A stretch of DNA of 64,000 nucleotides from Gemmatimonadota bacterium (GTDB lineage Bacteria > Gemmatimonadota > Gemmatimonadetes > Gemmatimonadales > GWC2-71-9), in NCBI GenBank assembly GCA_003169895.1, contig PNAE01000007.1, forward strand, positions 626,967 through 690,966, given 5' to 3'. The position numbers were made by a program, and so were the translations under genes. The notes beneath the pieces were generated by a model that saw only the letters and a list, made by a program, of their open reading frames with translations, was not told where the DNA came from and searched no databases. Numbering within the stretch: the stretch's first letter is position 1; every line of letters starts with the position of its first letter. Shown in pieces: positions 43,095 through 44,438 of the stretch.

Positions 43095-44207
43095 TCAGTC
43101 CAGCAGCCTCAATGGCATCACGAGAGTGAGATATGCTGCCGGGTCGTCCCAGCCGACCGGTTCGACGGTCGCCGCCCGCTCCGGCGCCTTGAACGTGAGC
43201 CGGACCTCGTCGGTCGGCATGTACTTCAACACCTCGAGCAGGTAATTCGCGTTGAAGCCGATATCAAGCGCCTCGCCCTCGTAGGAGACCGTGATCTCCT
43301 CCTGGGCCTCGCCGAGGTCTGGTGTGGTCACGGAGAGCCGGCACGAGCCATCACCGAAGGCCATGCGGATGCGATGCGTCTGATCACTCGCCACGATGCT
43401 CATGCGGCGCAACGCGGACATCAACGACGCCTTCTCGACCGTGGCAACCTTGTCGTTCTCCCGCGGGATTACCTGCTCGTAATTCGGATAGGGTCCCTCG
43501 ATTAACCGCGTGAAGACCTGGGTCGTCGCCGACCGGAAGCCCAGGTGATTGTCAGACCGGCCAATTTCGATCTCATCGTCCGGACCGAAGAGTTTGCGGA
43601 ATTGCTCGAGCGCCTTGGGTGGCACGATCAACTCCGCCTGCTGGGCGACGGTGCTCTGCATCGGGATTTCCATCTTGGCGAGCCGGTGCCCATTCGTGGC
43701 CACCATCCGCATCCGATCCGGAAGCAGTTGCCACAGGACGCCGTTGAGCACCGGCCGGCTCTCCTCCGTGCTCGCGGCAAAGGCGACATGCGCGATCAGC
43801 TTCTGCAGCTCGCGTGCAGTGGTCTTCGACGACCCATCAAAGGCGACCTGCGGAAAGCTCGGAAATTCCTCGCGGGGCAGTCCAAGAAGCTTGAACTTGG
43901 ACCGCCCGCACTCGATGGTAACGCGCTGCTCTCCCTGGGTAGTCATGCGGATGCCCGCGCTCGGCAACTCGCGAACCAGCTCCACCAGCTTGCGAGCCGG
44001 TAGCGTGATGGCGCCTTCCTGATCGACCGCTGCGGGAACCATGGTAACCACCGCGATATCCAGATCGGTCCCGGAAAGCCGCAATCCGTCCTTGGTTGCT
44101 TCGAGGAGGATATTGGCGAGCACGGGCAGCGTGGTCTTGGTTGGAACAGCCGCCGCGACGGCGGTCAATCCTTCCTGGAGCTGCTCTCGCGTGATGGTGA
44201 ACTTCAT
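43095..44207 (-). CDS. dnaN: DNA polymerase III sliding clamp (beta subunit)
   Basis: 370 residues from ATG 44207 (MKFTITREQLQEGL), the usual family start. Three clamp domains are seen: LQEGLTAVAAAVPTKTTLPVLANILLEA at the start, FAASTEESRPVLNGVLWQL and HRLAKMEIPM in the middle, and IGFNANYLLEVLKYMPTDEVRLTFKAPERAATVEP followed by the C-terminal VMPLRLLD. It tethers the polymerase to DNA. It lies downstream of dnaA across a 231-base candidate origin. Confidence 0.96.
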   Translation of the reverse strand: MKFTITREQLQEGLTAVAAAVPTKTTLPVLANILLEATKDGLRLSGTDLDIAVVTMVPAAVDQEGAITLPARKLVELVRELPSAGIRMTTQGEQRVTIECGRSKFKLLGLPREEFPSFPQVAFDGSSKTTARELQKLIAHVAFAASTEESRPVLNGVLWQLLPDRMRMVATNGHRLAKMEIPMQSTVAQQAELIVPPKALEQFRKLFGPDDEIEIGRSDNHLGFRSATTQVFTRLIEGPYPNYEQVIPRENDKVATVEKASLMSALRRMSIVASDQTHRIRMAFGDGSCRLSVTTPDLGEAQEEITVSYEGEALDIGFNANYLLEVLKYMPTDEVRLTFKAPERAATVEPVGWDDPAAYLTLVMPLRLLD

Positions 44208-44438
44208 CGGCTTCCCCGGGTTGCCAGAAAAACTACTGTTTCTCACTAATTAAGACTCTAGTAGTAGCAGTAGAGGGCTGGGAAATGTGGACCCATTCCC
44301 TAAACGGCATCCGCGTACCGTGCTACGATGCTTCGGCTCGCGTGGAGTCACCGTGGAGCACGGGGAACGTCCGGTGACTTCCCCACGCAAATCCGCATTC
44401 GCCAACGTCATCCACGATGCTGCATTGCACACTGTGTA
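44208..44438. other. oriC: Candidate replication origin (oriC) between dnaA and dnaN
   Basis: An AT-rich patch (44225-44258) is followed by the triplet run TAGTAGTAGCAGTAG (44259-44273), a short G-rich spacer and TGTGGACCC (44286-44294), a degenerate reverse DnaA box. Further box-like copies are CGTGGAGTC (near 44340), CGTGGAGCA (near 44352) and TCATCCACG (44408-44416). The order AT-rich, TAG triplets, GC spacer, DnaA box matches the DnaA-trio unwinding element of Bacillus subtilis. None of the boxes is a perfect TTATCCACA. Confidence 0.55.

Follow-up and report, generated by a model that had tools for sequence, protein, structure and literature searches.

The DNA analysed here, called the window (64,000 nucleotides; G000:C8:626967-690966), belongs to a Gemmatimonadota assembly of 3.42 Mb in 13 contigs that is 98% complete. 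Among named relatives, its DnaA was closest to those of Gemmatimonadetes genomes (94% and 87% identity). The gap between dnaN and dnaA (44208-44438) holds, in plus-strand order, an inverted trio pair, an AT-rich patch, five DnaA-trios, a GC cluster, a pair of DnaA boxes and weaker box-like sites (Table 1). The comparison set of 125 dnaA–dnaN gaps combined 60 relatives belonging to the window's own genus, family and order with genomes drawn from across the phylum, and the same extraction was applied to 70 loci of other phyla, mostly Bacillota. The order and strand of the two genes were conserved in all but a few relatives, with a gap of approximately 180–320 bp. No experiment on any Gemmatimonadota origin was found in the open-access literature, and Gemmatimonas may figure in the supplementary tables of PMC8287927.

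Table 1. Features in and around the dnaA–dnaN gap, numbered from the first letter of the window
Feature	Position	Strand	Remarks
dnaN, DNA polymerase III sliding clamp	43095-44207	-	Pfam DNA_pol3_beta domains 1-3
Inverted trio pair, CTACTG on + (5'-CAGTAG-3' on -)	44233-44238	-	Opposite the trios, on the far side of the AT patch
AT-rich patch (DUE), predicted to melt first	44239-44258	.	70% A+T
Five DnaA-trios TAG TAG TAG CAG TAG, TAGTAGTAGCAGTAG	44259-44273	+	Polarity 3'-GAT-5', leading away from the boxes
GC cluster AGGG, separating trios from boxes	44274-44277	+	4 bases, length as in Bacillota
Degenerate proximal DnaA box, CTGGGAAAT (on +)	44278-44286	-	5 mismatches; clearer in relatives
Distal DnaA box, TGTGGACCC	44286-44294	-	3 mismatches to TGTGGATAA; core TGTGGA conserved
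Weak box-like site, CGTGGAGTC	44341-44349	-	Core retained in most of the genus
Weak box-like site, CGTGGAGCA	44352-44360	-	Box-like sequence
Weak box-like site, TTCCCCACG	44379-44387	+	Core retained in the genus
Box-like site, TCATCCACG	44408-44416	+	2 mismatches; retained in most of the genus
dnaA	44439-45830	-	Pfam DnaA_N, Bac_DnaA, Bac_DnaA_C: domain I, AAA+, domain IV helix-turn-helix
Possible upstream DnaA box, TGTGGAAAA	45898-45906	-	1 mismatch to DnaA box; dnaA–rpmH gap

The trio run and its conservation

The earlier note had placed a trio run and a reverse box, 12 bases apart, between dnaN and dnaA. The coordinates of both were correct, the Bacillus subtilis-like order (AT-rich, trio, GC cluster, reverse box) is present, and the spacing matches that of Bacillota origins. 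The length of the spacer also held, but it is better read as the four-base AGGG followed by the degenerate proximal box. Just upstream of the run, 70% of 20 bases are A+T, compared with a mean of 71% in the relatives, against 42% on the dnaA side. The trio pattern TAGTAGTAGNAGTAG had a single exact occurrence in the 3.42-Mb assembly, at the dnaA–dnaN gap.

Conservation of the run and boxes in relatives, which the note had proposed as a check, was borne out, with a clear trio run in 115 of the 125 gaps across order, class and phylum (by trio score cut-off). With the run aligned from its box-proximal end, the best conserved columns of the gap were the trio run, the GC cluster AGGG and the box core. 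The fifteen trio bases carried 1.1-2.0 bits in families f1 and f3, with approximately 0.6 bit or less just outside; since conservation falls sharply after the fifth trio, the element comprises exactly five trios. The GC cluster, in the window's own family, had 1.2 and 1.5 bits at its first two positions, then 0.2 and 0.5. A strict search (five perfect TAG plus TGTGGA) matched in only two of 101 genomes, because this pattern permits no trio variation. The trio motif is short and repetitive, and one-mismatch copies of the run lie at two other places in the genome, as a chance or microsatellite triplet repeat would allow; however, phase and repeat number are fixed in those 115 gaps and the box-proximal trios are nearly invariant across the relatives. 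This conservation refutes the chance reading, to which we give practically no weight.

A role of the run in dnaN expression, as promoter, start site or mRNA leader, was also considered. The dnaN start codon is 51 bp from the run, the minus strand of the run lies upstream of dnaN, and a -10 element could sit in the AT-rich patch. However, the triplet grammar, attached boxes and fixed box spacing are those of the basal unwinding system (BUS) rather than of a promoter, the run of locus L048 retains its boxes though its distance to dnaN reaches 389 bp, and Bacillota origins hold the same element, so that we regard this explanation as very unlikely.

In the outgroup family f9 and some members of f5, trios were either weak or not detected. 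Five f5 loci (L235, L237, L244, L246 and L247) were without a clear TAG run and had another pattern in common near TAGTAACAG, accompanied by GATCGTCATCATAG and, further along, by a TGTGGAAA box; the trio may have been reworked in these loci.

DnaA boxes, initiator proteins and the probable origin

By the criteria used for a BUS, namely at least three consecutive in-register NAN trios and a box no more than 16 bp off, from which the trios lead away with polarity 3'-GAT-5', the window has five such trios of this polarity and a TGTGGA core 12 bp off whose position is conserved. The published box threshold allows at most two mismatches to TTATCCACA or to a species-specific motif, and the distal box TGTGGACCC, with three, falls outside it. 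Threshold-passing boxes beside the trios were found in 13 of 38 origins of the window's own family plus f3 (2.5 expected), 22 of 31 of f2 (4.0 expected) and 17 of 20 of the class (1.6 expected). Since the sister families pass the threshold at an equal locus and spacing, the element in the window is most readily understood as a diverged BUS. The earlier note had anticipated that box relaxation would be needed, and indeed the core TGTGGA is kept in the window's family while the flanks are not, the boxes of sister families being near-consensus at equal spacing. The distal box begins 8 bases beyond the start of the proximal box, and the pair in the window overlaps by one base. The proximal box reads TNTGGAAA in f1 and TGTGGA in f2, f3 and other families of the class, with clearer examples such as TCTGGAAA and TGTGGAGAT.

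Four more box-like sites had been claimed beyond this pair; TCATCCACG lies within two mismatches of TTATCCACA, but the other three (CGTGGAGTC, CGTGGAGCA and TTCCCCACG) are weak. Their cores nevertheless recur in place in most of ten genomes of the genus. Overall, the gap holds two box-like sites (TGTGGACCC with its intact core, and TCATCCACG) compared with 0.34 expected per 231 bp at the whole-window rate. An AA dinucleotide (44301-44302) lies 28-29 bases past the trio end, which puts it a helical turn further on than the distal box, and carries 1.0-1.1 bits in f1/f3, 0.6-1.0 in f2 and none in other families of the class. The TGTGGAAAA site in the dnaA–rpmH gap could belong to an upstream box cluster or to dnaA autoregulation.

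In published work (PMC8287927), a BUS search found the element in 1755 of 2070 origins (85%) with a spacer peak of 10-13 bp, within which the 12-bp spacer of the window falls. The suggestion that trios are little described in such phyla held in so far as we found no open-access paper, but not with regard to this wide prediction, and the presence of the core here is expected rather than surprising. The consensus of the Bacillota-dominated set, TAGTAGTAG-GGGC-TGTGAATA-TGTGGATAA, had the same order, polarity and spacing as the window. As in the B. subtilis oriC BUS (DnaA-boxes 6/7), the element lies between dnaA and dnaN with the same order, orientation and trio consensus 3'-GAT-5', a 4-nt GC cluster and a box pair 8 nt apart. 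Unlike the B. subtilis BUS, which has six trios, there are five here, C is common as the middle base, the boxes are degenerate, a facing inverted trio pair is present and no DnaD-family protein was found. The Thermotoga maritima eTrio, whose TAG trinucleotides in the DUE are required both for unwinding and for binding to the single strand (PMC10316083), likewise has a TAG run in the DUE, but differs in having three TAG repeats beyond another trio-like stretch and another box array.

The window's DnaA carries domains I, III and IV (Pfam). In B. subtilis DnaA, Glu183, Asn187, Arg202 and Glu228 grip the trio bases, Lys222 and Glu223 are backbone contacts, and Ile190 and the arginine finger Arg264 are essential (PMC8287927, PMC10721633). 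Alignment showed that the window's DnaA is identical at all eight positions, and the sole difference among the trio-binding residues compared was Asn196 to Arg. DciA is present in the genome. The DnaD/DnaB_2 family (PF07261) gave no match in the window's own genome (98% complete), with positive controls from B. subtilis and Lactococcus. The genome also encodes a 671-aa protein (G000:C13 L058:1489-3504, plus strand) in which two DnaA-type ATPase domains stand in tandem and the DnaA DNA-binding domain is missing. Its gene adjoins a Roadblock/LC7-like ORF, a P-loop GTPase-like ORF and a gene for a DUF4388-TPR protein, and most of the Gemmatimonadota genomes searched gave DnaA-like double-domain matches. 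The protein resembles a DnaA ATPase that has taken on another task, perhaps cell polarity signalling.

GC skew, sampled on 43 stretches of the 1.85-Mb contig C8, gave moderate backing for an origin at dnaA. The cumulative minimum (~643-659 kb; the gap is at 671 kb) fell inside the window, no more than approximately 30 kb from dnaA, and the skew changed sign between the left and right of dnaA, a weak signal (P = 0.028). The skew check raised by the earlier note thus gave a mixed picture: the contig minimum lies in the window, but with a weak signal, and there was no switch at dnaA in the closed relative G029 (P = 0.73). The weak skew and the missing switch in G029 would fit a gap that is a DnaA-binding regulatory or relic region, with replication beginning elsewhere. 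Against this stand the contig minimum, a skew switch at dnaA in the closed same-order genome G104 (P = 0.008) and a genome without a second exact trio run, and we consider such a region highly improbable.

What the analysis establishes is the anatomy of the gap, its conservation, its agreement with the trio rules and the presence of a DnaA suited to trios. We conclude that 44208-44438 is very probably the chromosome origin (oriC), with a BUS-type core at 44233-44294, and from this core we infer binding, unwinding and firing. DnaA would bind the box pair (44278-44294) as double-stranded DNA, and an ATP-DnaA filament would extend from the boxes onto the plus strand, one protomer per trio (44259-44273). 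The filament would pull this strand off its partner so that the AT-rich patch (44239-44258) opens, where helicase loading, assisted by DciA, would take place. Beyond this expected core, it is the middle-base pattern and the facing element that merit further study.

The middle base of the trios

The middle base was counted in trios 3-5 of 82 non-redundant origins, with the two box-proximal trios serving as anchor. A was found 196 times, C 38, G 10 and T 2; C thus made up 38 of the 50 non-A bases, an excess over one third with a binomial P value of 8e-10 if kinship of the origins is ignored. A-to-G is usually the commoner mutation. Group by group, C-bearing origins outnumbered G-bearing origins 12 to 3, 11 to 4, 7 to 2 and 1 to 0. 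The score used to place the run slightly favours TCG over TGG, which is a small bias. In the window itself, all five trios have A in the middle.

Mutagenesis in B. subtilis showed that the middle A can be replaced by C, but not by G or T, since A and C both have an amino group that contacts Asn187 (PMC10721633). The excess of C in natural non-A trios therefore indicates that natural sequences obey the amino-group rule found by mutation, and the ranking of the four counts parallels the preference seen in those mutants. A search for three NAN trios failed in 25 of 99 Gemmatimonadota origins, compared with six of 99 when NMN was allowed, so that some origins may escape the search rules in present use.

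The facing inverted trio pair

The inverted pair was followed through the relatives by counting CT[AG]CT within 45 nt upstream of the trios, with the expectation taken from dinucleotide shuffles. It was present in 22 of 33 origins of the window's family (6.0 expected; maximum of 12 in 300 shuffles), 13 of 31 of f2 (6.4 expected) and 42 of 88 phylum-wide (14.0 expected), with the positions concentrated between 31 and 20 bases ahead of the first trio. The opposite orientation showed no enrichment, nor did the word in 46 origins of other phyla including Bacillota (two vs 1.6 expected). Read on the minus strand away from dnaN, 3'-GAT-GAC-5' is oriented as a trio pair would be if a filament grew towards the AT patch. 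On the dnaN side, a forward DnaA box was found 42-49 bases before the trios in 9 of 20 origins of the class families (1.6 expected), and a reverse box, mostly 47-53 bases before them, in 16 of 31 of f2 (4.5 expected); the window's family had none above chance. The orientation of this box is opposite in f2 and the class relatives (e.g. L042 and L232).

No description of facing trio sets was found in the open-access literature. The nearest comparison is the Bacillus DnaD recognition element (DRE), proposed to place the second helicase (PMC10201434). Like the DRE, the inverted pair is a second single-strand motif within the melting zone. The DRE, however, is the sequence complementary to the trios and is recognized by DnaD, a protein not found here, whereas the inverted pair is a separate site approximately 25 nt from the trios.

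The inverted pair is thus an additional element under conservation, and our preferred guess is that it serves as a DnaA site on the other strand. Alternatively, it may mark the region where the dnaN transcript starts, or form a hairpin with the trios in the melted strand, with no second DnaA site, and this has not far from an even chance. Its distance to dnaN was barely more variable than that to the trios (S.D. of 12.6 vs 11.6), and an upstream CTGC accompanied GCAG in the trios, as pairing predicts, in 8 of 13 origins vs 7 of 31, a weak co-occurrence (Fisher P = 0.019, kinship ignored). In long trio–dnaN gaps, however, the pair stayed near the trios in L048, L199 and L210, though not in L046; regression of its position on dnaN versus the trios gave a slope of 0.55, which favours neither clearly. 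As a putative DnaA site, the pair together with the dnaN-side boxes of sister families suggests a double-ended origin. A fuller version, in which Gemmatimonadota origins are double-ended, the inverted pair guides an opposite DnaA filament onto the other strand and DnaA itself places both helicases of bidirectional replication without DnaD, is in our view unlikely.

Taken together, our results give strong comparative support for a DnaA-trio origin in a further phylum, one from which the open-access literature yielded no described origin. The alignments provide natural evidence for the rule of A or C in the middle of a trio, earlier shown by mutation, and the facing inverted trio bears on how bacteria that lack DnaD position a second helicase on the opposite strand.
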